Origin: a virus
Virus record (IMG/VR): IMGVR_UViG_3300027985_000604
Location: 1-23,055 of that record
Reading direction: 5' to 3' (one strand)
Length of the DNA: 23,055 nt
Of the stretch, positions 1,733 through 23,055 are shown piece after piece. Under the pieces are notes generated by a model. The model was not told the origin of the DNA and made no database searches. It was given only the letters and a program-made list of their open reading frames with translations. Made by a program: the position numbers and the translations under genes. Position 1 is the first letter of the stretch; every line of letters starts with the position of its first letter.

Positions 1733-2622
1733 CAGGTCAGGCCCTCCACTTCAAGGCTGCCAAAGCTGACCGTGGTGGTCAGCGGGATCGAGAAATCCTG
1801 GAAAAATCCGTAGACGGTGGTGCCGAACTGGCCCGTCTCGTCTCCGGCGTAATAGACGGCGGGGATGGCGCGCAGCCCCGCGAGGATCTTGCGGATGCGG
1901 CGGGCCTCGCCGGTGGGAAAGCTGAAGCGGAACTTCGTGGTATCGGAATAGGCGCGCTCGACGATGACCGCATTGCCCCATGCATCGCGCTCCTTCACCG
2001 AGAAGTCCTCGAAGCCGATCTCGGTCTCGGTCAGCGTTTCCCCAAGCGCCTGCGACTGGCCGAGCACGATCTGCCCGACCTCGGTGATACCGTCCGAGGT
2101 CAAGGTGATGTCGATCTGCGTGCCGGTGTGGGCGGGGATGCCCGCGGAGACATCGTGATCGACGATGATCACCGGCTCGACAAAATACGACCACCAGTCG
2201 GTGACCGCGCTGTTGTCGACGAGACTGTGGCTCTGGTCATGGATCACGCCATCGACCGGATCGGTGACCGTGACGCGGATCGCGGCGGCGGCGACTCCGA
2301 AGAAAGCAATGGCATCGACGCGGCGATCGGGCCGCAGCCGATAGGTGATCTCACCCGCCTGCATCACCGGATCGGAGATCAGCCGATCGAAGGCCTTCCA
2401 GCGGTTTGTCGCGCCGAGGCGGACCCAGAAGGCGCTGGCAGCATCGGCGAGAGGATCCTGCCCGGTGTTGTCGGTGACCGCCTGATAGAGGGCATGGCCG
2501 CGCACGACCCGTTCCCCGGTGGTGTAGCCCGCCCCCGCATCCCAGGTGGGCGCGTCGGTCTCTGCGACATTCGACGACAGCAGCATCGCCTCGGTGATGG
2601 TGATCGGTTCGATGATCCTCAT
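1732..2622 (-). CDS. Tail-tip / baseplate-like protein with carbohydrate-binding-like N-terminal segment
   Basis: The 296-aa product begins MRIIEPITITEAMLLSSNV. Residues about 27-58 show the spacing W..G..Y..G..V......Y.....N.G..P, seen in carbohydrate-binding segments of many phage tail proteins. The rest has no motif I can name but looks like a beta-rich structural protein. The ATG at 2622 overlaps the tape measure stop by four bases (ATGA), and its own stop overlaps the tail fibre start by one base, so it is translated as part of a tape measure-tip-fibre unit. Because no lambda M, L, K, I or J homologue follows the tape measure gene, this may be the main distal tail protein. That is inference from position. 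Confidence 0.6.
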   Translation of the reverse strand: MRIIEPITITEAMLLSSNVAETDAPTWDAGAGYTTGERVVRGHALYQAVTDNTGQDPLADAASAFWVRLGATNRWKAFDRLISDPVMQAGEITYRLRPDRRVDAIAFFGVAAAAIRVTVTDPVDGVIHDQSHSLVDNSAVTDWWSYFVEPVIIVDHDVSAGIPAHTGTQIDITLTSDGITEVGQIVLGQSQALGETLTETEIGFEDFSVKERDAWGNAVIVERAYSDTTKFRFSFPTGEARRIRKILAGLRAIPAVYYAGDETGQFGTTVYGFFQDFSIPLTTTVSFGSLEVEGLT

Positions 2623-5600
2623 GGGTTGGTCTCCTGTACGGGCGGCTGCCCGATGGCATCCCATTTGCGCGTGATCTTCGCGATGCTGCGGGTGTTGTCG
2701 GCGGTCTGCAGACCAAGCTGGCGGCTCTCATCCTTGAGCGCGCACAGCTCCTCGCGCAGGGCCCGCAGCTCTTCGACCACCTGCCGGTTGTCGAGCATCG
2801 AGCGCGTCTCGGACGGGTTGTAGACCCGCGAGGGCGCGACGAGCTCGAGGTCATTCTCGCCGATATAGGCCGGGCCACCGTCATGGGAGCCGCCGCGCGC
2901 GAAGGCCGGGAACTGCTGTGCCGCCAGATAGGCCGCCTCCTGGCTGCCGGTCGGGTCGTAGATCGTGCTGCCGACCAGGTCGGCCGCATCATAGCCCGCA
3001 ATCGACTGGTGGATCTGATCTGCCGTCTTGCCGCTGCTGTCATAGCCGATCAGGCGGGCCATCTCGGCCAGATCCGCGTCGGTCACGAAATACGCCCCGC
3101 TCGCATCTGCGGTCAGACCGGCGGCATAGGTGTTCAGCCGCGTCACGGCAGTGTCGTGCGCCGCCCGTGCCGTCTCGGCCTGCATTGCCGCCGCCAGCGC
3201 CTCGAGCGCGCCCTGCAGCGCGACCAGCGGCGCCGCGTCGATGCCGGAGGCACCGTCGAGCGCACCCAGGCCTGCGTTCAGCGTGGCGATCTGCGCGGCG
3301 CTCAGCGCATTGCCTGCGGCGATGGCGTCACGCACCTCGGTCATGAGATCGATCTGTTCCTGATAAAGGCCCTGCATCACCTCCCACTTCGCGCCCTCTG
3401 CCTCGGAAGCGCTCTGCACCGTGCCCAGATCCGACAGTACCCGTGCCTGCGCGAGGGCGAGTTCGACCGCCGTGCCGGCGGTTCCCGACAGATTGTCGAG
3501 ATAGGTCTGCGCGGCGCCGGTCAGCCCGCTCACGGCCTCCAGATCGCCCGCGCGCGCCGAGGCGAGCTGGTCGCGATACTGCGCCTGGGCGGCGTTCAGC
3601 GCCTGTGCCGGGGAGACCAGCGCACCCGGGGTCACCCGCATCGCGCGGATGAACTCTCCGATCGTCTCTGCGGCCTTGATCCAGTTGCCCGCCGCTGTCG
3701 CCGCGGCCCGTTGGCTGTCGGTCACCGCACTGATCGCCGCATCGAGGTGTGTCGATACCATCCCGAGCAGGGTCTCGAGTTCCGCGGTCAGCCCGGCCAC
3801 CGGTGGCAGGATCTGATCCATCACACCGGCCATCCCCACGAGGGCCGCCCAGAGCGCGCGCCCTGCCTCGGTGGTCAGATCCTGTGCGTCGATCAGGGCG
3901 CGATACTCGTCGCGCGAGCGCGGCAACGCGGCGTTGTAGGCCGCCAGCGCGGTCGCGGCCTGGCGCGTCAGGATCGCCTGTTGCTCAGCCTCGGAATAGA
4001 AGGTGCCCCAATAAGTCGAGACCGCCGAGGTGAAGCCGTCGGCGCCGCCGAGCAGATCCTGCAGCGCCGAGGACACCGCCGCCCCGGCAAGCCCCGCATA
4101 GCGCAGCGAATAGCCGAGCGTGTCGAAGGCACCGTTGACCGTGGTCAGCGCGGTGCTGAGCCGGGTGAGAGCCTCGGTCGCTGTCTCGCCGGTCGCGATC
4201 AGATCCTCGAGCCCGTCGATCATCAGCGCATAGGCGTCCGCCGCATCCGACATCGCCTGGGCCAGCGCCTTGCCGATCTCTTCGTCGCTGAGCCCCTTGG
4301 TCGACACCTTCAGCTCATAGGAAAAGGCGTCGAATTCGTCGGCGGCAATATCGAGAACAGAGGCCATCGACAGGATCGCGGCCTGCGTTGCATTGATCGC
4401 CTGGGTGATCGGATTGGCCACCTCTTCGCTGGCCGCGGTGCTGGTGGTCTTGGTCGAGGAGCTCAGCCCCCAGAACTTCGTCTTCTTGACCTTCTTGTAG
4501 GTCGAGACCAGCACATCGGTGTCGCTGATCACCGCCTTGATGCCCGCATCAAGAAGCTTGGTCTTGGTACGAAAGAAGCTGACCACCCCCGCGACGATCG
4601 CAATCGGGCCTGCGATAGCCCCGATGGCCGAGCCAAGCGCGCCGAGGGAGGAGACGATCGAGCTGCCGCTGCCGCTCAGCAGCGCACCCACATTGCCGGT
4701 GAGGTTTGCGAAGGCCCCTGTGACCGAAGCCGAAAGCCCCGCTAACCCGCCCGAAAAGGCACCGGTGATCGACCCCCAGGCAGCCGAGACAACCGAGCCC
4801 GCGAAATTGCTCATGCCCAGCGAGATCGCCGAGAAGGCCGTGCCGATCCCCGACATGGCGCCGCTGGTTGCGGCGGCTGCTGCGGTGCCGCCCGCCGAGA
4901 TGGACCCGGTCAGCCCCATGCTGATCACGATCTGGTTCTTCATCGCCATCGCGATCGCCTGCTTAAGCCAGGACTTGAGCGCATCCGTCATCGAGCTCAG
5001 CCCGCCCGTGAAGCCATCGACCAGCCCGGTCGAGATCGCATCGGCGAACTCGCCCACCAGCGGCAGGCTATCGGCGAGTTCGACATTCAGATCGCGGACC
5101 GCCTGCGCCCATTCGTCTTGCGACAGCGCCGCCTGCAGCGGCACAAGACGCGCGAGCTTTTGCCGATAGGCCTCGAGCGGATCGAGCGATGCCCTGAGTG
5201 CATCGAGCTCGCGCTCATGTTGCCGGGCAAGCCGCTCGGCCGCGCGCGTCGCCGATCCCGCCGAGCGTGCCTCGGCCCGGTTGCTCTCGATCAGCTGCTC
5301 CTTCTGGGCGAGCAGATCCTTGAGGGTGCCGATCTGCGCCATATCGGTGGCATAGCGCGCGTTGGCGATGACCAGATCGGCCCCGGCGGCGACGGCGGCG
5401 TTCCGGTTTGCCTGCGCCCGCGCCTCGAGCCCCGCGACCATCACGGCGTTCGCGGCATTCGCCTTGGTCTTGAGCGCCTCGATCTCGACACCGACCGAGG
5501 CAACCTGCGCATCGAGATTGACCGAGAAAGCCGCCGCCGAGGACAGGGCCGAGGCGAGTTGCTGCGCCGCGGTCTTCGCATCATCGAGGTTGATCGCCAG

Positions 5601-9871: not shown

Positions 9872-11989
9872 TCAGACGCCGGGGTTCTTCCAGGCGCCAC
9901 GATGTTCGACCGCGGCAGCGCCGAAGATATGGCGGGCGTTCATCACCACGGCATCGGGGTTCATGCCCTCGATCGTCTGCACCGTCGGCGCGGCATAGCC
10001 ATCGAGATAGGCGTGCGCGATCGGCGGCAGGTCGCTCGAGACCAGATACCACGCGGTATCCGAGCCTCCTGCGGCGGCGCCGAGGTTCGGCACCACGCCC
10101 GGGGTCAGCGTCGACTTGAACGGGTTCACCTTGCCGTCCTCGCCGGGCGTGGTGCTGGTCGCGAACTGCAACGCCACCAGCTCGAGGGCGGGCGGCACGA
10201 TCAGCCGGTCCGGCTCGACTTGCATGAAATCGTCCTTGTCGCTCGAGCCGAAGGGGCGCTGTTCCCACATCGCCTTGCGCCCGGCCGAGACACTGGTGAT
10301 CGAGATCGCCGCGGCGGGCGCCGCGAGGTTGCCGTGGTCGGCATGGAAGAGCGACTTGCCGTCGGACTTCAGCTTCGCATTGGCGCGGAAGAGCGACCAG
10401 ACCATCGAATTCTCCATGGCGCGCGCGGCCATCGCGAACTCGGCCGGGATCCGGTTGAAGGCGCCCATATCGTCATTCACCACAGCCTCGAAGGTCAGCC
10501 GGATCGTGCGTCCGCGCCGCTCGACCTTCAGCCCCTCGGCCTCGTCCGACAGGACCGCCTCCTCGTATTCGCCGTTCTCGCGCACCCGCTTGAGCGCGAA
10601 GTCACCACCGAAGCGCACCGCGTGCAGCTCGCGGAAGTCGGTCGCCGTCTGGGCCGCCCCGGTCACCAGCTGCCACGAGGCTGCCCGGCGCTGATAGGCC
10701 GCCAGCAGAGTACGGTTCATGACTTCGGTGGTGATATAGGCGAAGTCGCTGACGCCATAGGCGCCGCCCATCATCGTGGTCGAGGCCATCCCGCGCCGGA
10801 TCGACTCGAGATCATTGTAGCCGCGCGCGGGCCCGGCGAGTTCCATCGCCATATGCCGCAGGCGCATGCCGCGGAACATCGTGGCGGGCCCGTCCGCCTG
10901 CCCCATCAGCGCACCGATCATCCCCTCCATCCGGGTCTCGGTCTCGTCGCGCCCGATCCGCGCGGCGGGGGCGGCGCTGCGACCGGCGGGCTCGTTGGCC
11001 GCCATCGTCGCGAGGATGCGCGAGCCCGCATCGGCCACGCTCACGCCGCCGTCGATCAGCGCATCGAGATCGGCCTGCATGAACCGCCCGGCAGCGACAT
11101 GCGGCGCGGCCATCTCGCGGATCGCCTTCACCCGGGCACGCTCCTGCGCGATGCCATCAGCCGCACCGCCAGGCGCGGCCATCGTGTCGGGCGCGGGCGT
11201 CACCGGCGGCGTTTGCGGCGGCGTGGTGGTGGGCGCCGTCGACGTGGTCGTCTGGGTCTGGGTATTCATGTCGGTTTCCTTGTGTTGGGTGCCGCTGCTG
11301 ACGGCGGGGGTACGACCGGGCCGCGGGGCCCGCTCAGGGGTGGGTGCCGCCGCAAGCCGCGCCTGCAGCTTGTCGCGCGCGCTCATGTAGGCGGTCTGGA
11401 CAGTTGCCAGCGCGGGAACGGTCGGTGCGACCACGGCCACTCCCCCGTCGGCAATCCCGTCGGCAAAGCCGTTCTCGATCGCGGCCTCGGGCCCGAACCA
11501 GGTCTCGGCCTTCATGATCTCGCGGCACTCGACCGCGGACTTGCCCGAGGCGGCCGCATAAACGGCGGCATAGGTGTTGGCGGTCAGCCCGAGCTGGTCC
11601 GCCTTGCGGCGGGCCTCGGCCTCGTTGCCCCAGATCGCGCCCGAGGGGTCATGGATCATCAGGTGCGAGCCTGCCGACATCAGCCGTTCCGCCCCCGCCA
11701 TGAAGATCAGCGAGGCGGCCGAGGCGGCGACACCCTCGACCACGATCCGGCATCCGCCCGGGTGGCCGGCAAGGATGGCGCGGATCTGCTCGCCCGCATC
11801 GGCGTGGCCGCCCGGCGAATTGAGCCGCACCGTCACCTGCCCCTCGCCCAGGGTGGCCAGCGCCTGGCGCACCATGCCCGGGGCGAAGAACACGTCTTCC
11901 TCCCACATCCAGCCGACCCAGTCGTCGAGCAGCACATCGCCGCTCAGGATCAGCTCTCCGCCCACGATCAGGTCATTGCCCGTCCGCAT
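9872..11989 (-). CDS. Prohead protease / major capsid fusion protein (ClpP-like + Mu gpT-like)
   Basis: A single 705-aa frame joins two functions. Residues about 1-195 form a ClpP/S49-like protease: RLNSPGGHADAG, then VEGVAASAASLIFMAG with the likely nucleophile Ser90, then LMIHDPSG with His113. A third catalytic acid is not obvious. A Thr/Pro linker (about 241-265) is followed by a Mu gpT-like capsid domain: RGMASTTMMGGAYGVSDFA, AVVNDDMGAFNRIP and LKSDGKSLFHADHGNL. Cleavage by the protease domain presumably matures the head. The start at 11989 is secured by AAGGAGG six bases upstream and overlaps the portal stop by 17 bases. An internal start at Met241 could make capsid or scaffold protein alone. 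Confidence 0.9.
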   Translation of the reverse strand: MRTGNDLIVGGELILSGDVLLDDWVGWMWEEDVFFAPGMVRQALATLGEGQVTVRLNSPGGHADAGEQIRAILAGHPGGCRIVVEGVAASAASLIFMAGAERLMSAGSHLMIHDPSGAIWGNEAEARRKADQLGLTANTYAAVYAAASGKSAVECREIMKAETWFGPEAAIENGFADGIADGGVAVVAPTVPALATVQTAYMSARDKLQARLAAAPTPERAPRPGRTPAVSSGTQHKETDMNTQTQTTTSTAPTTTPPQTPPVTPAPDTMAAPGGAADGIAQERARVKAIREMAAPHVAAGRFMQADLDALIDGGVSVADAGSRILATMAANEPAGRSAAPAARIGRDETETRMEGMIGALMGQADGPATMFRGMRLRHMAMELAGPARGYNDLESIRRGMASTTMMGGAYGVSDFAYITTEVMNRTLLAAYQRRAASWQLVTGAAQTATDFRELHAVRFGGDFALKRVRENGEYEEAVLSDEAEGLKVERRGRTIRLTFEAVVNDDMGAFNRIPAEFAMAARAMENSMVWSLFRANAKLKSDGKSLFHADHGNLAAPAAAISITSVSAGRKAMWEQRPFGSSDKDDFMQVEPDRLIVPPALELVALQFATSTTPGEDGKVNPFKSTLTPGVVPNLGAAAGGSDTAWYLVSSDLPPIAHAYLDGYAAPTVQTIEGMNPDAVVMNARHIFGAAAVEHRGAWKNPGV
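11267..11281 (-). promoter_or_regulatory. Internal ribosome-binding site and ATG inside the protease-capsid gene
   Basis: AAGGAAA followed by CCGAC and an in-frame ATG at 11269 (Met241) lies exactly at the junction between the protease domain and the Thr/Pro-rich linker. Initiation here would give a 465-aa protein without the protease domain, similar in logic to lambda Nu3 inside gene C. The domain-border position makes chance unlikely, but it is still inference. Confidence 0.55.
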
Positions 11990-13442
11990 CGTCGTCCTCC
12001 TTGTTCGAGGCCTCGGCCTCCGGTTTGCGATTGCTGTTGGCTGCAGCGGGGGCCTCTAGGCCTGCGGCATTGTCGGCCTCGGCATCCTGCTTGCGCTCGG
12101 TGCGGATGCGCTCGGGATCGCGGCCCAGCTCGCGCTGCGCGCTCTGGCGGCTCACCAGCCCCGCGTCGATCTCCTCGATCATCGCCGGGATCTCGCGGGT
12201 CGGATCGACCATGATCCGCCGCGGCGGCGTCCAGTCCATGGTGAACTCGAGGCCCTGATGACCGACAAGCGCGATCCCCTCACGGAACCACCGTTCCATC
12301 CCGGCACCGAACTGCATGATCATCAGCCCGCGCTGCCACATCCGCACCAGCCGGTCGAACTCGTTGCGCCCCATGCGCGCGCTCGAGAAGTTCGCCTGGC
12401 GCAGGTTGCCTGTCAGCGACTCGAAGGTGATCCCGAGGCCCACCGCAATCGTGCGCAGCCCCCAGGTCATGAACTCGTCGTAGCCCTCGATCGAGGGCGG
12501 GTTCACCGGCACCGCGTCGGCCCCATCGGGCAGGCTGACAATCGCGCCCGGCGCGAGCTGGTCGAGCCCTGCGCCGCTGTTCGCCGGCCGCAGCGCGCCG
12601 CCGGTCCACTTCAACATCACCGCCATCAGCGACGAGATCTTCTGCTTCAGGATCTGCGCCTCCTGGTAGTCCGCGATCTCGCCAAGCGTCATCATCACCG
12701 GGGCAAGCCACGGGACCCCGCGCAGCTGGCCTGCGCGCTCGAAGCGGCGGATGTGGATCACATCCGACCAATGCACCCGGCTCGACTGCAGCGGCTTGCG
12801 CGTCAGCACCGCCCCGGGATGTTCGTTGAAGAGGTGATAGGCCTCGATTGCGCCGGTCGGGCCATATTCCACCCCCTCGATCACCTGGTTCTCCCCCCAG
12901 GACGAGACCGTGGTGTCGAGGCAATCGACTTCCAGCAACTCGACCTGATAGGGCAAGGGCAGATGTCGGCCATAGGCCCCGCGCCGCCAGCGCCGCCGCA
13001 GCAGCACCTCGCCATCGGCAAAGACGCTCGACATGCAGATCTGCTGCATCTCAAGGAGGTCATATTCCCCAAGCGCGCAAATCGCTGTGCTCAGCAAGTG
13101 GCGCTGCAGCAGATCCTCGACCGTTGCCTTCGCGTTCTCGCCCGCGGTGCTGCGGATCGAGGGCATGATCCCCTCGCCCACCACATTCGCCACCACCACG
13201 TCGCGTGCCCGCGTCGCATAGGCACGGTTGCGGATCATGTCGCGGCTGAGCTGGCGCAGCCGGGCGCGCGAGCCGAACGCCGCCGCATCAGCGGAGGTGG
13301 CTGGCGCTTTCCAGTCATAGGTACGCCGCCCGCGCGAGGCGGCGTCGTAGTTCATCAGGTTCGCGGTCTGCACCCGCGCCGCAACGCGTTGCAGCGCCAT
13401 CTGCGGCGCGAAGAACCCGATCGTCCGGTCGAGGATGTTCAT
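11973..13442 (-). CDS. Portal protein (lambda-type)
   Basis: The 489-aa product begins MNILDRTIGFFAPQMALQRV. It carries lambda portal-family landmarks: YDAASRGRRTYDW near residue 32, RQLSRDMIRNRAYATRARDV (about 62-81) and a NVVGEGIMPS motif just after. The central part has an ADGEVLLRR motif, and the later SLTGNLRQANFSSAR motif (about 330) precedes the long helical stem region. The Lys/Asp/Glu-rich C-terminus (NKEDDDADGQ) is typical of portal tails. The portal forms the dodecameric DNA entry ring to which terminase docks. The ATG at 13442 overlaps the gpW stop by one base; a GTG at 13445 giving a GTGA overlap is an equally possible start. Confidence 0.94.
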   Translation of the reverse strand: MNILDRTIGFFAPQMALQRVAARVQTANLMNYDAASRGRRTYDWKAPATSADAAAFGSRARLRQLSRDMIRNRAYATRARDVVVANVVGEGIMPSIRSTAGENAKATVEDLLQRHLLSTAICALGEYDLLEMQQICMSSVFADGEVLLRRRWRRGAYGRHLPLPYQVELLEVDCLDTTVSSWGENQVIEGVEYGPTGAIEAYHLFNEHPGAVLTRKPLQSSRVHWSDVIHIRRFERAGQLRGVPWLAPVMMTLGEIADYQEAQILKQKISSLMAVMLKWTGGALRPANSGAGLDQLAPGAIVSLPDGADAVPVNPPSIEGYDEFMTWGLRTIAVGLGITFESLTGNLRQANFSSARMGRNEFDRLVRMWQRGLMIMQFGAGMERWFREGIALVGHQGLEFTMDWTPPRRIMVDPTREIPAMIEEIDAGLVSRQSAQRELGRDPERIRTERKQDAEADNAAGLEAPAAANSNRKPEAEASNKEDDDADGQ

Positions 13443-17466: not shown

Positions 17467-18312
17467 TCAGCCACCATAGCCCTGCATCCGGTCGAGCGAC
17501 GCCCCGAGAGCATCGCGCAACATGTCCAGGCGACAGCCTTGCTTCGACCAGCCGTGCGCCGTCAGCACAGCCCCAAGATCCATGTCTTCCAGGCAAACCG
17601 CATCCACCAGCCGCCGGTCGAGGATGACCGAAGCCCCTGCCCCGCGCGCACTCGGGCGTACCCGGCGCACCACCATCGCCGCCCCGTCGCCAATCCGCCG
17701 CCGCAAGACCGCGATCTTGCGAGCCTCATCGAGCCGAAGATCCGTCACATCGACGCCACGGCCAGAACCGCCCGTCCGTCCCTCGAGGCTAGACAGCTTG
17801 ATCGCCCCCGCCTCGTGCCGCTCGACCAGCGTCCGGTAAAACCGCGCGACAGCGATCTGACCGGGCGTGAAGGGCGCGGGCTTCTTCGCAGCGCCCGCCC
17901 GCGCTTCCATCCTGTCGAACACATCCGCCGCGCACACCGCCTTGCGCGGTTGCACCTCGCCCGGGCCCTGATATCCCGTATCCTCGATCGTGTTGCGCGT
18001 ACCGGGCCGGACCTGCCGCATCGTGAACACCCGACACGCACCGCGCGCCGGCGCCGCCGGGATCTCGGGGCCGCAGGCCTCGGGGGGCGCGGCGCGGGAC
18101 AGGATATAGGCCTGCGACAGCGCCTGCATCTCGCCCAAGGTGTGCGGGCGCACGGCCCCGTCCCGCTCGGCCCAGACCAGCACCCGGCCCCAGGCGCGGC
18201 CCAGTTCCAGATCGAGCGGATGGAAGCCCGCAAGATCCGCCCCGCCCAGCACCGCCGCCAGAACCTCGACCGCCGGGCGGCGGCGGGCGTGAACAGCTGC
18301 CAGCCCCATCAT
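17467..18312 (-). CDS. Unknown protein in the lambda Q position (possible late regulator)
   Basis: The 281-aa product begins MMGLAAVHARRRPAVEVLAA. It has a Pro/Ala-rich middle, a FTPGQIAVARFYRTLVERHE helix (about 150-170) and a basic C-terminal part with ARKIAVLRRRIGDG, then RRLVDAVCLEDMDL and an ending of LDRMQGYGG. I recognise no named family. It is the last gene of the early operon and is followed directly by a candidate promoter and terminator and then the late genes, the place where lambdoid phages encode the Q antiterminator. A role in switching on the late operon is therefore a reasonable hypothesis. The ATG at 18312 overlaps the upstream stop by four bases (ATGA). Confidence 0.6.
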   Translation of the reverse strand: MMGLAAVHARRRPAVEVLAAVLGGADLAGFHPLDLELGRAWGRVLVWAERDGAVRPHTLGEMQALSQAYILSRAAPPEACGPEIPAAPARGACRVFTMRQVRPGTRNTIEDTGYQGPGEVQPRKAVCAADVFDRMEARAGAAKKPAPFTPGQIAVARFYRTLVERHEAGAIKLSSLEGRTGGSGRGVDVTDLRLDEARKIAVLRRRIGDGAAMVVRRVRPSARGAGASVILDRRLVDAVCLEDMDLGAVLTAHGWSKQGCRLDMLRDALGASLDRMQGYGG

Positions 18313-18887
18313 GCCACCTCGCCCGCAAGCGCTGCGATCTCGTGGCATTTGGCCAGCGCGGCCTGCCGCCGGGCGTGCCAGGCGCGGTCATCGGCGTGCA
18401 GCTCCTGCCCCGCCGCCAGCCGTTCTTCGAGCACGATCATCCGCCGCCGCGCCTCATCCGCCGCAGCCCGGATCTGCGAGGCGGCGAAACCGCCCGGGAA
18501 CTGCCGCACCCGGCGCAGGTTGCCCAGGAGTTCCGGCGCCCAGCCCTCGGCCAGCGCCTCGCGCCCGATCCGGCTGGCAAACACCGCCCGCATCAGCGGC
18601 GAGACGCTTTCCTCGGGCGGCTGGATCATCGCGGCCCAATCGAGGATCTTGTTGCCGATCGGCAGCCGGTCGCGGTCCTTGCCCGCCGGGTTGGCCGCCA
18701 CCTGTTCTTCGAGCGCCGCCAGATTGGCCGGGCTCATATAGGCCAGCCGGGCGCACAGATCCGCCACCATCGCCTCGAACTGCGCCCGCGTCAGGCTCGC
18801 AGGCCGCGCCAGCCCCCGCCGTTCCAGCGGTTCGATCAGGATCTCGCGCACCCGTTTCTCGGCCATCTTCTGCTCTGTGCTGTCCAT
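18309..18887 (-). CDS. Unknown early protein downstream of the putative origin
   Basis: The 192-aa product begins MDSTEQKMAEKRVREILIEP and is mostly helical and charged, with a LTRAQFEAMVADLCARLAYM segment (about 32-51) and a C-terminal coiled region (about 140-185, rich in Ala, Arg and Glu). No family is recognised and no catalytic motif is visible. It follows the origin-like gap and precedes the Q-position gene. By position it could be the partner of the DUF1376-like protein in replication, comparable to lambda P after O, but nothing in the sequence proves that. The start is well supported: AAGGAG lies nine bases before the ATG at 18887. Confidence 0.65.
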   Translation of the reverse strand: MDSTEQKMAEKRVREILIEPLERRGLARPASLTRAQFEAMVADLCARLAYMSPANLAALEEQVAANPAGKDRDRLPIGNKILDWAAMIQPPEESVSPLMRAVFASRIGREALAEGWAPELLGNLRRVRQFPGGFAASQIRAAADEARRRMIVLEERLAAGQELHADDRAWHARRQAALAKCHEIAALAGEVA

Positions 18888-18920
18888 CGCCTCTGTCTCC
18901 TTTTCTTCGCAAATCCCGAC

Positions 18921-18929
18921 TTATCCACA
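18921..18929 (+). other. Perfect DnaA box
   Basis: TTATCCACA matches the consensus high-affinity DnaA box exactly, and TTATCCACAG lies in the non-coding gap between two early genes. It is 75 bp from a cluster of short repeats and beside a pyrimidine-rich tract, the ingredients of a replication origin. Confidence 0.6.
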
Positions 18930-18956
18930 GGCGCCCCTCGGTCGATCGTCACGGTT

Positions 18957-19087
18957 GCGTCTGTCTGTTCTTGTCTTTTCTTGTCTCTTCTTCTCTACGC
19001 AGAACTGTCACACGACAGACGTGACTGTCCGCGGACTGTCCGTGACAGTCACAAACCGTCACGCGTGACACTCGCGGGACAGTCACG
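18957..19087. repeat. Pyrimidine tract plus GACTGTC/GACAGTC repeat cluster (origin candidate)
   Basis: From about 18957 to 18997 the plus strand is almost all T and C, with TTCTTGTC occurring twice and a near copy after it. From 19005 to 19087 the 7-mer GACTGTC occurs at 19023 and 19034 and its complement GACAGTC at 19044 and 19078, with near copies at 19004 and 19014. GTGACTGTC (19021-19029) and GACAGTCAC (19044-19052) form a 9-bp inverted repeat; GTCACGCGTGAC (19058-19069) is a perfect palindrome. This is iteron-like binding-site architecture. Together with the DnaA box it makes this gap the likely origin. An operator array for a phage regulator is the main alternative. Confidence 0.6.
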
Positions 19088-19094
19088 CCCCCGC

Positions 19095-19706
19095 CTAGAG
19101 CCACCTCTCGCGCCGCGCATGCAGCAGCGCCGCGCCATAGGATTGCCCGTCGCGCCGTCCGCGCACATGGGCGAGCATCCATTCATCCATGCGCTCGATC
19201 AGCATGTCGCTGGCCAGAACCGCGTCGGACAGCCCGAGCTTGCCCAAGCCCTCGCGCAGCCGCTCGCGCCGCTTGCGCACCGCCGCCGCTTCGCGCGACA
19301 TCTCGCGTGCCTCGCGCCGGTCGAGCGCATCGCGCACCTGTTCCAGCACCACCGGATGCATCAGCCGCACCTCATCCCCGCAACGGCAACGCCGCCACCC
19401 CCGGAACGGCCCGAACTCGGCCCGCCGCAGCTCCCCGATCCGCCGCCGCTCGACCCGCAGCATCACCGCGAGTTCATCGTCGTCGTCGGGCAAGGTGCCG
19501 ATCGGGCTTTCGGTCTGCGACATATCGAACAGCGCCCGCGCCATCCCCTGCGCCTCCCACGACGCCAGGCGGAAGGTGCGCGAGGACAGCCAGCGGTGAT
19601 GCCACCACTTCACGAAGGCATGCGCGTCGAGCCGTTCGTCGCGGCCGATCGGATATTCCTCGATCTCGTCCATCTGCACGAGCCTCGGCCTTGCCGGATC
19701 AATCAT
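19095..19706 (-). CDS. DUF1376-like putative replication protein
   Basis: The 203-aa product has a VKWWHHRWLSSRTFRLASWE segment (about 32-51), then a helix ending in GTLPDDDDELAVML (about 70-83). It continues with RRIGELRRAEFGPF and a HPVVLEQVRDAL, and a strongly basic helix (RKRRERLREGL). The order W.....L....F.L...E, then G.LPDDD..LA, then a regulator-like end is typical of DUF1376-type proteins, found in phage replication regions. It probably takes part in replication initiation; the origin-like repeats begin only a few bases after its stop, much as the lambda origin lies within or beside gene O. The ATG at 19706 overlaps the upstream stop by four bases. Confidence 0.65.
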   Translation of the reverse strand: MIDPARPRLVQMDEIEEYPIGRDERLDAHAFVKWWHHRWLSSRTFRLASWEAQGMARALFDMSQTESPIGTLPDDDDELAVMLRVERRRIGELRRAEFGPFRGWRRCRCGDEVRLMHPVVLEQVRDALDRREAREMSREAAAVRKRRERLREGLGKLGLSDAVLASDMLIERMDEWMLAHVRGRRDGQSYGAALLHARRERWL

Positions 19707-19927
19707 CTCACCCCCTCCTGAGCATCGGTTCCCCGCGCGCCCTGCCCTGCGGCCGTGTCGCCCACCTGCCCTGCCAGCATGTCGCGGATCTCGCGCACGC
19801 TCAGCGCGCCGTCCTCGCGCGGGAAGCGATGCGCCAGATACCCCGCCACCTCGGCCAGCCAATACCCGCAGGCGCGCAGCTCGCGCGCCAGATCCTGTTC
19901 TTCTGCTGTCCAGCGGCCCGTCATCAT
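19703..19927 (-). CDS. Small early protein with helix-turn-helix-like pattern
   Basis: The 74-aa product (MMTGRWTAEEQDLARELRAC, then WLAEVAGYLAHRFP, then ALSVREIRDML) reads as W..EE...A.ELR.cG..L.EVA.YL followed by a recognition-like helix, similar in layout to Myb/GcrA-like or homeodomain-like DNA-binding domains. The C-terminal 25 residues are Gly/Ala/Thr-rich and probably disordered. It may regulate early transcription or replication. The ATG at 19927 overlaps the previous stop (ATGA), and a second ATG follows directly. The DNA-binding reading is inference. Confidence 0.6.
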   Translation of the reverse strand: MMTGRWTAEEQDLARELRACGYWLAEVAGYLAHRFPREDGALSVREIRDMLAGQVGDTAAGQGARGTDAQEGVR

Positions 19928-20370
19928 AGACCACCCCCGAAGATCTGCGCCTCATAGCGCCCAAGGACGCCCGCGATCCGGCGCAGATCCCGCGCCGCTT
20001 TGCTGGTGTTCATAGCGCGCGCCAGAACCGGTCGGCTATCCGGCCCGTAAAGCGCACGGAGACCAAACTCGGACGGCCACAGTAGTACCTCAACATGAGA
20101 CATGGGCAGGCGCCTGACGGCCACGGGCGCCGCCACATCCACTAATCTGCGGGCATCCATTGCATCAGCAATGGCACGCGCCTGCGCCGCCATGCCACAC
20201 TCAATATGACCGCAAAAAAGAGCTCGCCCATCCCATGCGGAACCCGGCCACAGGCTGAACGTCACGCCGCCGTCGCGATGGTCGAAGATGCCGAAGCCAA
20301 GCGTGCCAAGCGGAAATCCAAGGCGATCATGCACGCGTGGGCGCGGAACGGAGGCAACCGGCGCGATCAT
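19924..20370 (-). CDS. Unknown early protein, 148 aa
   Basis: The product begins MIAPVASVPRPRVHDRLGFP and has a beta-rich first half (GFGIFDHRDGGVTFSLWPGS) with a CGHIECGMAAQARAIADAMD segment, then a helical C-terminus (AARDLRRIAGVLGRYEAQ). No family is recognised. Codon choice in the middle (20040-20330) uses more A/T-ending codons than its neighbours, so it may have been acquired separately. GGAGG lies seven bases before the ATG at 20370, and the start overlaps the upstream stop (ATGA), so it is very likely expressed. The neighbours are DNA-binding-like and replication-like proteins. Confidence 0.65.
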   Translation of the reverse strand: MIAPVASVPRPRVHDRLGFPLGTLGFGIFDHRDGGVTFSLWPGSAWDGRALFCGHIECGMAAQARAIADAMDARRLVDVAAPVAVRRLPMSHVEVLLWPSEFGLRALYGPDSRPVLARAMNTSKAARDLRRIAGVLGRYEAQIFGGGL

Positions 20371-20546
20371 GCCTGATCCTCCGCGTCTATCTCACGCAGA
20401 GCGGAACGCATCTGCGTCACCGTCACCGGGCTCACCCGCATGACGCGCACGATCTCTGCCTGCGACGATCCCTCGTCGAGCATGCGGCAGATTTGCAGAT
20501 CCCTCGAATCCAGATCCCCGTCACCTTTGCGGCGCTTGATGGCCAT
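20367..20546 (-). CDS. Small helix-turn-helix protein (sigma-4/LuxR-like fold)
   Basis: The 59-aa product is a single domain: LDSRDLQICRMLDEGSSQAE, then IVRVMRVSPVTVTQMRSAL. The pattern L..RDLQI...L..G.S..EI...M.VS..TV...R..L is that of LuxR or sigma region 4 DNA-binding motifs, with the recognition helix near SPVTVTQMRSAL. An acidic end (REIDAEDQA) follows. It probably binds DNA as a phage regulator or partner of a larger protein. The ATG at 20546 overlaps the DUF1937 stop by one base (TGATG), and its own stop overlaps the next start. Confidence 0.7.
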   Translation of the reverse strand: MAIKRRKGDGDLDSRDLQICRMLDEGSSQAEIVRVMRVSPVTVTQMRSALREIDAEDQA

Positions 20547-20995
20547 CACAGCGCCTCCCCGATCAGCACCGGAACCCGATGTGCGATCGCCCACTCGATC
20601 TCGGCACCCACACCGCGCGAGCGCGCCCACCCCAGCAACGGCGGCACATAGACCAAGCCGCAGGCCGAAAGCAGCGGCATGCACCAGGCGCTCCAGAAGG
20701 CCTGATCCAGCGGGTCCAGCGCGCGATCGGCATGGCACGCGTCCGTCGCCATCACGATAGGCGAAATCGCCGTCACACCGGCCCGCGCCAGCCGCCCGAT
20801 CTGGGCCGCGGCGACGACCGAGGCGCGCATCGAAAGGCCCCAATCCCAGGCGTCCGCCACCACGACCTCGCGGCTGTAGGGCGTGGCCAGATAAACTGCC
20901 CGCCCACCGCAGCGTGCGGCCACGTCATCGACTGTCGCGCCGATCAGCACGGCATCAGACCCGAACGCCCCCATCCAGTCCGGCCGATCCATCAT
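20546..20995 (-). CDS. DUF1937 protein (deoxyribosyltransferase-like)
   Basis: The 149-aa product carries the DUF1937 landmarks: VYLATPYS (about 34-41), SPIVMATDA (about 78-86), DQAFWSAWCMPLLSACGLVYV (about 97-117) and GWARSRGVGAEIEWA (122-136). These resemble the fold of nucleoside 2-deoxyribosyltransferases, in which a Glu in the last block acts as nucleophile; Glu132 would be the equivalent. The natural substrate of DUF1937 proteins is not established to my knowledge. A role in nucleotide recycling or modification for phage DNA synthesis is plausible. The ATG at 20995 overlaps the upstream stop by four bases (ATGA), with a run of G's four bases upstream. Confidence 0.85.
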   Translation of the reverse strand: MMDRPDWMGAFGSDAVLIGATVDDVAARCGGRAVYLATPYSREVVVADAWDWGLSMRASVVAAAQIGRLARAGVTAISPIVMATDACHADRALDPLDQAFWSAWCMPLLSACGLVYVPPLLGWARSRGVGAEIEWAIAHRVPVLIGEAL

Positions 20996-21339
20996 ACCGC
21001 CCCCCCATTTCTGCGGGCAGCCCGGTCCATGCGCTCGATCTCTGCGATCAAAAGCGCCGCAGCCTTGACCAGCATCCGGCGTGGCGCGCAGGGTTTCCAC
21101 CAGCGCGGCGACCATGGCCATGACCCGGACGGACGGACGAGCTCCGGGGTTACCTCTGGATGACGCCCACAGAACACCGCAGCCCGCAGGTATTCATCTG
21201 CGGCCTGAGACAGTTGAAATCCGACATGGTGGTCGTCGTGCGTGACCGAAAATCCCTCACGCGTGCTTTGGCCGCGACGCTCGTTCAGAATGTCCTGCTC
21301 TGCGGCGGTCAGTTGGTATCGCACCACGCTATCAGCCAT
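20992..21339 (-). CDS. Conserved phage protein of unknown function (WPW..WWKP motif)
   Basis: The 115-aa product contains EQDILNERRGQSTREGFSVT, then HDDHHVGFQLSQAADEYLRA, then SGSWPWSPRWWKP and finally a VKAAALLIAEIERMDRA helix. The order ERR.Q...EGF...HDD.H..GQL..AA..Y..., then WPW....WWKP, then ALI.AEIERLDR is a pattern I have seen in many small phage proteins of unknown role. The His/Asp cluster suggests metal binding (inference). The ATG at 21339 has GAGGG seven bases upstream, and its stop overlaps the DUF1937 start, so the two are coupled and may work in the same pathway. Confidence 0.8.
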   Translation of the reverse strand: MADSVVRYQLTAAEQDILNERRGQSTREGFSVTHDDHHVGFQLSQAADEYLRAAVFCGRHPEVTPELVRPSGSWPWSPRWWKPCAPRRMLVKAAALLIAEIERMDRAARRNGGAV

Positions 21340-21587
21340 CACAAAACCCTCACGGAAAAAACGGGCGAGACGCACCCCGCCAGAGATCCAACAGGAAGAC
21401 ACGCTTGACCCGGCGCGCGCGGGGTGGATGCACGGCGGCGCAGGGAGGAGAGAGGCGCCGCCGCGCCCATCCGGTGCGCAGCCCCATGCGCCACCAGATC
21501 GGAAGAAAAAACGGTGCGGCGGGCACGCAGCCCCACCGCACCGAGGCACCGCACCGCCGGGCAAGTGTGATCGGCGCGGGGAATCAT
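21339..21587 (-). CDS. Doubtful 82-aa frame across the early terminator
   Basis: This frame overlaps the upstream stop by four bases (ATGA at 21587) and the downstream start by one (TGATG at 21339), and GGAG lies seven bases before its ATG. These junctions look like those of real genes in this operon. Against it, its codon third positions are less GC-rich than those of neighbours, the product is Arg/Ala/Pro-rich with no recognisable fold, and a good intrinsic terminator lies inside it. The stretch may simply be a non-coding leader between the CII-like gene and the next gene. Confidence 0.35.
   Translation of the reverse strand: MIPRADHTCPAVRCLGAVGLRARRTVFSSDLVAHGAAHRMGAAAPLSSLRRRASTPRAPGQACLPVGSLAGCVSPVFSVRVL
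21506..21543 (-). terminator. Intrinsic terminator in the early operon
   Basis: On the minus strand an 8-bp stem (CGGTGCGG / CCGCACCG), with an inner GGGC/GCCC pairing in the 16-base loop, is followed at once by six U residues (TTTTTTC in DNA). It lies between the CII-like gene and the rest of the early operon and may limit early transcription until an antitermination event, like the lambda tR1 terminator. Confidence 0.65.
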
Positions 21588-22021
21588 GGGGTCTCTCCGG
21601 CTTCCAGCAGGCCGCGCGCCTGGAGGATCGCCGCAGCGGCCTCGTCCAGCTCGCGGATCGCCCGCGCCCGGTCCTCGGGCCGCGCACTGTCAAGCGCATG
21701 CAACAGCGCCCCCACCGCCTCGCCGACCTCGCGCGCCATCACGCCCGCCTGCACCGTCAGATTGGCCCCTCGCGGCGCCTCGGTCGCCCCGAACCGCCGC
21801 GCCAGGGCCTGCGTCACCGCATCGACGCCGAGCGCATCCTCGAAGGCCACCACATCGGCCACCGTCCATTCGAGCGAGCCGTCGCGCTTGCGCGAGATCG
21901 TGCCCTTCGACACCGGATCGCCCCACCGCGCCCCAACCGCAGCCGCAGCCCCCTCGACCCCGCCAAGCCGCTCGGACATCGCCCGCATATGCGCCCGAAC
22001 CGTCAGACGAACGTCATACAT
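21584..22021 (-). CDS. CII-like phage regulatory protein (CP76-like)
   Basis: The 145-aa product contains RLGGVEGAAAAVGARWGDPV, then SKGTISRKRDGSLEWTVADV and VAFEDALGVDAVTQALARRFG. The layout A..lG......S..TIS.K..g...wt..dv..fEdalG...v...LA resembles the CP76/CII regulator family of temperate phages, in which a helix-turn-helix is followed by a helical bundle. The C-terminal half (about 90-145) is a helical coil that could drive oligomerisation. It lies two genes after Cro, where lambda cII would be. The ATG at 22021 is chosen over an upstream frame extension because GGAGG lies six bases before it. Confidence 0.6.
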   Translation of the reverse strand: MYDVRLTVRAHMRAMSERLGGVEGAAAAVGARWGDPVSKGTISRKRDGSLEWTVADVVAFEDALGVDAVTQALARRFGATEAPRGANLTVQAGVMAREVGEAVGALLHALDSARPEDRARAIRELDEAAAAILQARGLLEAGETP

Positions 22022-22109
22022 CGGAAGCCTCCAAAACCTTGTTTTCTTGTGGAATGCCCGGACGAGGCCCATCTTGCGAGGCATCGAAAGGAGAAACGAA
22101 ACGCCGCAT
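22014..22109 (-). CDS. 31-aa small early protein downstream of Cro
   Basis: This small frame encodes MRRFVSPFDASQDGPRPGIP and a short end (QENKVLEASDV). The evidence for expression is good: its ATG overlaps the Cro stop by one base (TGATG), GAGGAGG lies seven bases upstream, and its TGA overlaps the start of the CII-like gene by eight bases. No family is recognised and the peptide is too short for a fold assignment. It may be a small regulator or anti-host peptide, or may mainly couple translation between Cro and the CII-like gene. Confidence 0.55.
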   Translation of the reverse strand: MRRFVSPFDASQDGPRPGIPQENKVLEASDV

Positions 22110-22312
22110 CACGCCGCCTCCTCGCGAAGCGGTGGATGGGCGGTCATGTAGCGGCGCACGCGGTCGACGCTCGACAACGTCGGGCTCGACTGGCCCGCGC
22201 GCCATGCATCCCAGGTGCCCCATTTCGCATTGATCGCGGACCGAAGCACCGCCTGAGGGGAGCGCCCGGTCGCGTCAGCGTATGCAGAGAGGTCGATGAT
22301 GAGTTGTTCCAT
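22109..22312 (-). CDS. Cro-like repressor
   Basis: The 67-aa product begins MEQLIIDLSAYADATGRSPQ and continues AVLRSAINAKWGTWDAWRAG, a compact helix-turn-helix pattern (TGRSPQAVLRSAINAKWGTWDAW, split here by position at residues 15-38). It is transcribed away from the S24 repressor across three shared operators, the defining arrangement of lambda Cro. An in-frame ATG at 22321 would add three residues. Neither start has a Shine-Dalgarno sequence, and a promoter with -35 TTGCCA (22350-22345) and a weak -10 CATACC (22327-22322) would begin transcription almost at the ATG, so a leaderless message is likely. Operator 1 would lie between the -35 and -10. Confidence 0.75.
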   Translation of the reverse strand: MEQLIIDLSAYADATGRSPQAVLRSAINAKWGTWDAWRAGQSSPTLSSVDRVRRYMTAHPPLREEAA

Positions 22313-22325
22313 GGGCACCATGGTA

Positions 22326-22399
22326 TGGGGGATTTCCCCCAAATTGGCAAGGGGAAAGACCCCCATGGCCCCAACGCCACTTGTGGGGCATCTTCCCCA
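22326..22399. promoter_or_regulatory. Triple operator GGGG-N6-CCCC between repressor and Cro genes
   Basis: Three sites share the form GGGG-N6-CCCC, each with A after the last C: TGGGGGATTTCCCCCA (22326-22341), AGGGGAAAGACCCCCA (22350-22365) and TGGGGCATCTTCCCCA (22384-22399). Their centres are 24 and 34 bp apart. The first is an almost perfect palindrome. The last ends one base before the repressor ATG, the first ends 14 bases before the Cro ATG at 22312. Binding by the repressor and by Cro at these sites would control both promoters, as in lambda OR. Confidence 0.75.
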
Positions 22400-22400
22400 T

Positions 22401-23055
22401 ATGCAGAAAAAGAACCTCGACGCCTTCGTGCGCGGCCTAAAAATCATCATGGATGCCGAGGGGTGGAAGATGAAGCCGCTCTCGGAAGCCGCGGGCATGG
22501 GCGAGTCTGGTATCCGCGATCTGTTCCGCTATTCCTCCGCCCCGAAGGTCTCCAATGCCTATGCGATCAGCCAGGTTCTAGGGCGCACGGTCGACGAGAT
22601 CATCCAGATCGGCAAGTCCGGGCAGTTATCAGATATCCCCGCGGTGCCACTCATCGCTGTCGCAGGACGAGTCGGCGCCGGGGCGGAAGTCGACTTGGTT
22701 GATGCCTTTGGCAAGGGAAACGGCTTGTTTCACATTGCCTGCCCGCCACAGCTGAACCCACACGGCATCGTGGCGGTCGAGGTCGAAGGCGACAGCATGT
22801 CCCCCGCGTATCCACCCGGGACGATCCTGTTCTACAGCCGAGATGCCCTTGGGGTTCCGACCGAGGCGATCGGCAGAGTTTGCGTGTGCGAGGACGTCAG
22901 CGGCAGGGCGTGGGTGAAGCACATTAAGCCGGGGCTTGAAGAGGGGACCTTCTCCCTTATTTCGCTGAACCCGCATCACGATCCGCAGCACGGGATGCGG
23001 CTGAAATGGGCGGCGCCGGTCAAATTCAGCCTGCCGCCTGAGTTCGTGAAGAGGG
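22401..23055 (+). CDS. S24-family prophage repressor (CI-like), C-terminus cut by window end
   Basis: About 218 residues are visible. An N-terminal helix-turn-helix (about 8-62, with LSEAAGMGESGIRDLF) is followed by a LexA-like domain. The linker has GRVGAG (89-94), with the probable self-cleavage bond Ala93-Gly94. The active Ser132 is in VEVEGDSM, and the Lys173 in WVKHIKP is the likely partner. The Ala-to-Ser and Ser-to-Lys spacings, 39 and 41, are close to lambda CI (38 and 43), so RecA-stimulated cleavage and induction by DNA damage are expected. The ATG at 22401 abuts operator 3 and lacks a Shine-Dalgarno sequence, suggesting a leaderless message as for lambda PRM; an in-frame GTG at 22383 is less likely. 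Confidence 0.9.
   Translation, partial: MQKKNLDAFVRGLKIIMDAEGWKMKPLSEAAGMGESGIRDLFRYSSAPKVSNAYAISQVLGRTVDEIIQIGKSGQLSDIPAVPLIAVAGRVGAGAEVDLVDAFGKGNGLFHIACPPQLNPHGIVAVEVEGDSMSPAYPPGTILFYSRDALGVPTEAIGRVCVCEDVSGRAWVKHIKPGLEEGTFSLISLNPHHDPQHGMRLKWAAPVKFSLPPEFVKR

Follow-up and report, generated by a model that had tools for sequence, protein, structure and literature searches.

In the replication origin of phage lambda, an A+T-rich region of about 40 bp is nearly all purine on one strand, and the iteron plasmid origins of P1, F and RK2 combine helically phased repeats with an A+T-rich region and a DnaA site, as described in the accessible portion of PMC5043065. Two Paracoccus phages, vB_PbeS_Pben1 and vB_PsuS_Psul1, have the same slot, layout and downstream gene as the locus described here. 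Pben1_p32 was annotated as a replication protein and for Psul1 the authors guessed p21, and no origin is named for either phage in the accessible portion of that report (PMC6536676); the Psul1 homologue of the gene studied here is p22, not p21. No published description of an origin formed by this gene and the gap beside it was found in the open-licence literature, outside which most subscription journals lie.

We analysed an IMG/VR virus record of 23,055 bases (the whole stretch is hereafter the window), whose genes lie on the minus strand with the early genes to the right and a lambda-type terminase (Nu1-like and gpA) and a portal to the left. A gap of 207 bases (18888-19094) separates genes 19095-19706 and 18309-18887; along the transcribed (minus) strand, the initiator-like gene is followed by the repeat array, the purine tract, the DnaA box, a ribosome-binding-like site and then the next gene (Table 1). 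The product of the next gene has only a sub-threshold Pfam match (Phage_TAC_6, E 0.0038), and at least 87 relatives of its family were confirmed in viral contigs. The gap had been predicted to be a candidate replication origin, and this is supported by the layout of 51 homologous gaps, the confinement of the box to them, the least stable tract, the coupling between repeats and protein, natural swaps and replacement in the slot. On this comparative sequence evidence, we consider the gap to be very probably a phage replication origin that forms a functional and evolutionary unit with the upstream gene.

Table 1. Positions of the features of the gap and its flanking genes in the window.
Feature	Position	Strand	Basis or remark
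Conserved downstream gene, 192 aa, no assigned function, slot marker	18309..18887	-	outside the swapped cassette
Ribosome-binding-like AAAGGAG, ahead of the next gene	18897..18903	-	read by eye
Perfect DnaA box TTATCCACA (TGTGGATAA on the transcribed strand)	18921..18929	+	sole copy in the window
Purine-rich putative unwinding element; pyrimidine tract on the + strand	18957..18998	-	stability and composition
Repeat array, inferred binding sites of the neighbouring protein	19004..19087	.	GACNGTC near-palindromes and degenerate copies
12-bp palindrome GTCACGCGTGAC	19058..19069	.	within the repeat array
Candidate initiator gene, 203 aa, DUF1376-like fold	19095..19706	-	phrog_22470, AlphaFold2, BFVD

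The locus resembles the lambda ori/O region in that a putative initiator gene and a repeat array stand together in the early region, with an easily melted purine-strand tract adjacent. The original prediction had likened the gap to the origin at lambda gene O, and this stands as far as the repeats are linked to an initiator-like gene, but the lambda iterons lie within the gene and span 19 bp, whereas the array of the window lies 3' of the stop codon, beside and not inside the gene, with a spacing of 10-11 bp. Unlike lambda, the window gap has a perfect DnaA box and no lambda P-like loader was found: neither a phage helicase nor a loader appeared among the 16 distinct window proteins scanned, and no product is named helicase or loader in Pben1 or Psul1, many of whose products are hypothetical. 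The layout shares with P1, F and RK2 the helically phased repeats, the melting region and a DnaA box alongside (the latter in 29 of 51 relatives), but it differs in having no Rep_3-type initiator by Pfam, in its short palindromic units instead of long direct iterons and in its phage setting.

Inspection of the gap recovered the individual elements that had been predicted there. The perfect DnaA box is the single match in the 23,055 bp, even when the looser TTATNCACA is counted. The pyrimidine tract, given as about 40 bp, has pyrimidines at 35 and A/T at 24 of its 42 plus-strand positions and holds the repeat TTCTTGTC twice, and the least stable 40-mer of the whole window (rank 1 of 23,016) starts within it at 18959. 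The four exact copies of GACTGTC/GACAGTC within 62 bp are present at 19023, 19034, 19044 and 19078, together with degenerate copies at 19003 (AACTGTC), 19054 (AACCGTC) and 19067 (GACACTC), and one further exact copy in the window lies at 20930; the 9-bp inverted repeat (GTGACTGTC/GACAGTCAC at 19021/19044) and the 12-bp palindrome are likewise as predicted. Both 7-mers are near-palindromic forms of GAC-N-GTC, so their direction means little. GACNGTC occurs four times in the gap, where 5,000 Markov copies of its sequence gave an expectation of 0.22 (P 0.0002), and in an unbiased scan 4 of 60 simulated windows had some 7-mer present four times within 62 bp. The bare 7-mer count is by itself only moderately rare, and it is therefore the comparative evidence that carries the case.

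Relatives were collected by viral-contig searches with the 19095-19706 gene and its downstream neighbour, to which the two Paracoccus phages were added, and at least 82 loci with the gene gave 51 non-redundant gaps (similarity below 92%). Of these gaps, 29 contain an exact DnaA box, 30 boxes in one orientation with none reversed, and the remaining 499,343 bp of those loci contain not one; in the 29 gaps, the box follows the tract end at 23-39 bp, with a median of 32. The exact box is absent from the remaining 22 gaps, and a box with up to two mismatches follows the tract in only three of them, thus DnaA binding cannot be general; with two fifths of the gaps lacking an exact box, DnaA must be optional there or bind differently. 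Among 55 gene clusters tested, no family convincingly explained the box-less gaps (best uncorrected p 0.034).

A 35-mer with at least 0.8 purines on the transcribed strand occurs in 37 of the 51 gaps, compared with 0.6% of random 120-mers, and a 6-8-mer is present at least three times within 95 bp in 47, the purine threshold being missed by 14 gaps and the repeat threshold by four. At 27 of 51 loci, no 40-mer in the surrounding 5 kb is less stable than the lowest one in the gap, and at 46 the least stable 40-mer of the gap ranks in the top 2%. Autocorrelation of the repeats over the 51 gaps peaks, relative to shuffles, at 10 (z 9.9), 11 (z 3.5) and 20 and 21 (z 5.7); the repeats are phased at 10-11 bp, in step with the helix. 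Three loci (L016, L018 and L133) have a second copy of the array after the DnaA box, so that arrays lie on both sides of tract and box.

In the complete genomes of Pben1 and Psul1, the sole exact DnaA box of each genome lies in the homologous gap, which spans 12020-12265 in Pben1 and 9958-10123 in Psul1. The same layout is found at 29183-29447 of pP66_i (NZ_CP010714.1), a circular 33.8-kb element of Phaeobacter inhibens whose two exact DnaA boxes are both in the homologous gap. It is a complete phage-like element without a typed replicon and may be a phage-plasmid or an excised prophage; the layout is suggestive only, hinting that the fragment might replicate autonomously. Plasmid records matching three queries numbered 5, 5 and 7 and were mostly megaplasmids or large plasmids, on which the gene copies may be integrated prophages; in Sagittula p1, no comparable array was found in the 311 bp after its shorter gene. 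The genome records of close relatives (14 loci) are mostly of Rhodobacterales, namely Sinirhodobacter, Rhodobacter, Gemmobacter, Pseudogemmobacter, Falsigemmobacter and others. One record labelled Exiguobacterium profundum (CP059262.1, locus L179) holds a 63% relative otherwise seen in Rhodobacterales, and its label may be wrong. In Psul1 (MK291443), the gene at 2507-3661 is annotated as DNA polymerase III beta subunit, the sliding clamp.

The protein encoded upstream of the gap matches phrog_22470, 'replication protein', with an E of 3.8e-6, and the same match is obtained for 28 of 34 relatives. Its AlphaFold2 model (mean pLDDT 92.9, pTM 0.73) displays a helix-strand-helix-helix-strand-strand order, in which residues ~50-116 form a winged helix that is followed by a 39-residue helix (118-156); the putative recognition helix would lie at residues ~87-95. 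The description of this protein as DUF1376-like holds by fold, with matches to BFVD models named DUF1376 (E 1.2e-6 to 6.7e-4), but not by Pfam, since the window protein has no Pfam match at E up to 1 and so is not of Rep_3 type by that measure. Four relatives were also scanned; L020, L046 and L091 reach only 15-17.7 bits against the DUF1376 (PF07120) gathering score of 30.1, and L019 has no DUF1376 match.

Matches to solved structures are weak, with a best Foldseek E of 0.08 and, by VIA, a best Z of 5.4 for 4pql (rmsd 3.5 over 83 residues). Plasmid initiators are at the top of these matches, and ORC2, MarR/ArsR-type regulators and the centromere-binding AspA are also among them. PDB entries 4pql, 4pta, 4pt7 and 5kbj are what we take to be RepA_N plasmid initiators; the likeness is in the winged-helix arrangement, the best structural match although a weak one, with a Z of 5.4 at most over 83 residues, and is one of fold, not of sequence.

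The resemblance of the winged helix to MarR/ArsR regulators, the palindromic repeats and the position of the gap as the 5' leader of the next gene would also suit an operator, and autoregulation is frequent among iteron-plasmid initiators. The array would then belong to a transcription switch through which the 19095-19706 protein or another phage regulator controls the operon from 18887, with DnaA acting as a transcription factor or the box being incidental. We regard this as unlikely, because no sigma-70-like promoter was found in 18700-22800 (a search of the sigma-70 type only) and the box stands at a set distance from the least stable tract. Dual use of the array, as origin plus operator, is possible.

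The repeat letters differ by lineage (ACTGTC, CTGTTC, CACAGAA, CTGTTAC, GGACAGAA, CTGAAA). Over 49 loci, repeat content tracks the upstream winged-helix protein (r 0.676, partial 0.666) and is hardly related to the downstream one (r 0.177, partial 0.089); the weak tie of array similarity to the downstream gene has a permutation p of 0.016. Part of the correlation would arise by common ancestry in any case, because the array directly adjoins the upstream gene. Even so, at 50-70% protein identity, the 4-mer similarity of the array is 0.43-0.50 as compared with 0.28 for the spacer.

Stronger support for the coupling of repeats and protein than the correlation comes from natural swaps. Locus L036 and loci L094/L095 have flanks that are 95-99% identical and downstream proteins that are 98% identical, whereas their upstream proteins share 25% identity and the array similarity is 0.07. 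Between L036 and L095, 95% identity over 1,449 bp ends at the sixth base of the gene on one side and 97% identity over 863 bp starts ~160 bp past the gene stop on the other, and different genes and arrays stand between. A survey in which 156 loci were compared found such swaps in 111 locus pairs, involving 46 loci and 17 cassette types in 10 pairings. Gene, array and purine tract are thus swapped as one unit between relatives. In three of the 10 pairings, homology restarts right at the DnaA box, to within 3 bp; in the L133/L140 pairing the box is within the swapped piece and not at its edge, in L119/L120 an early end of the L119 gene match leaves the edge ill-defined (+832), and in the remaining pairings neither partner has an exact box.

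The swaps also bear on the lambda-type terminase encoded nearby. In lambda, cosB consists of repeats to which Nu1 binds, and with Nu1-like and gpA-like genes downstream the array could be a packaging site (cosB/pac-like) for this terminase. We find this extremely unlikely, as it is the adjacent upstream protein that the repeats track, and its gene, not the terminase, that is exchanged with the cassette, and as the layout also occurs with P27-type terminases (pP66_i, pORIO5); L036 and L094/L095 differ in terminase.

Folding of the 95-bp arrays raises a further alternative, an RNA leader element, since they fold more stably than shuffles with a median z of -3.79 (below -2 in 41 of 51). The opposite strand folds equally well (median z -3.46), however, as expected of palindromic DNA sites, and no Rfam match was obtained in the window at the gathering score; an RNA element was rejected on these two grounds. 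A partition site has in its favour that plasmid centromeres, too, can have repeats phased at 10-11 bp and that AspA is among the weak fold matches, but no ParA-like product is among the annotated genes around the gap in Pben1 and Psul1. Taken together, we consider it very unlikely that the array serves as an RNA leader or as a partition (centromere) site.

The reading as a replication origin gains further weight from the loci in which other genes occupy the slot. Among the matches listed, 77 loci have the downstream gene, and the upstream gene is of the same family in 69 and another gene in eight. All eight alternative genes contain at least three copies of an 8-12-mer within the gene, most of them ~23 bp apart, and they end no more than ~70 bp from the downstream gene or just before its start; no exact DnaA box was found in the stretch scanned at these eight loci. 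In a PHROGs scan, seven of the eight match 'replication initiation' families, several of them named O-like, and the gene of L112, which is cut at the contig end, has no PHROGs match; three that were scanned against Pfam match HTH_36. Hence, loci that lack the array have in its place a recognisable initiator with in-gene iterons, and this replacement, with so little room before the next start, also speaks against an operator.

GC skew was not used as an origin locator since it is confounded by the direction of transcription. With that confounding, the skew of the aligned loci does not change sign at the gap, and the detrended minimum is 350 bp from the gap in Psul1, 3.7 kb in Pben1 and ~5.9 kb in pP66_i.

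In light of these data, the best reading is that the initiator-plus-origin cassette would act like lambda O/ori and the iteron plasmids, with host DnaA taking part where a box exists. By analogy with these systems (the accessible portion of PMC5043065), the 19095-19706 protein would bind the helically phased GACNGTC-type repeats through its winged helix and wrap, bend or distort the array, and the neighbouring 40-bp purine-strand tract, on account of its lowest stability and the lambda precedent, would then melt. Host DnaA on the single box, at the far side of the tract, may help to stabilise the opened strand and to recruit the host DnaB helicase.

We also propose a broader generalisation, which could equally well prove right or wrong: DUF1376-fold proteins of tailed phages would be origin-binding initiators that recognise short palindromes, phased at 10-11 bp, as one uninterrupted array along the helix; having melted a purine-strand tract, they would pass the origin to host DnaA/DnaB with no need of a phage loader. 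The initiator would evolve together with its array and tract as an exchangeable origin cassette of Rhodobacterales phages, with a crossover edge at the DnaA box or the leader behind it, and O-type cassettes with in-gene iterons would compete for the slot. Such a role would assign a function to a protein family that has only the labels 'DUF1376' or 'replication protein', and it would define the origin of a large group of Rhodobacterales phages. In Psul1, where the replication gene went unrecognised, it points to p22 instead of p21 as the initiator. The natural pairs of initiator and array would be a ready library for how initiators choose origins, and with some gaps having a perfect box and others none, the part that host DnaA plays in phage replication can be tested within one family.

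The 16-mer CCTGTGGATAAGTCGG, an extended DnaA box, was tried as a marker of the cassette and rejected as unspecific: a scan with it gave at least 119 stretches, and the gene family is upstream in 21 of 80 loci among the matches listed. In five viral contigs without the 19095-19706 gene family (L189, L200, L216, L229 and L242), CCTGTGGATAAGTCGG adjoins short tandem units, for example GTAGGGGCA or GTAGGGTCA, and these sites are possibly other phage origins. One detail of the original prediction, that the gap is the largest non-coding gap in the early genes, was not borne out, as 21355-21583 is longer (229 bp if the minus-strand gene begins at 21354). This longer gap carries two strong terminator-like hairpins on the minus strand. 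The gene at 20992-21354 encodes a 120-aa protein that aligns with the C-terminal end of phage proteins of several far longer families, for example with positions 572-669 of the 685 of phrog_6628 (E 3.6e-31), as if the domain stood alone.
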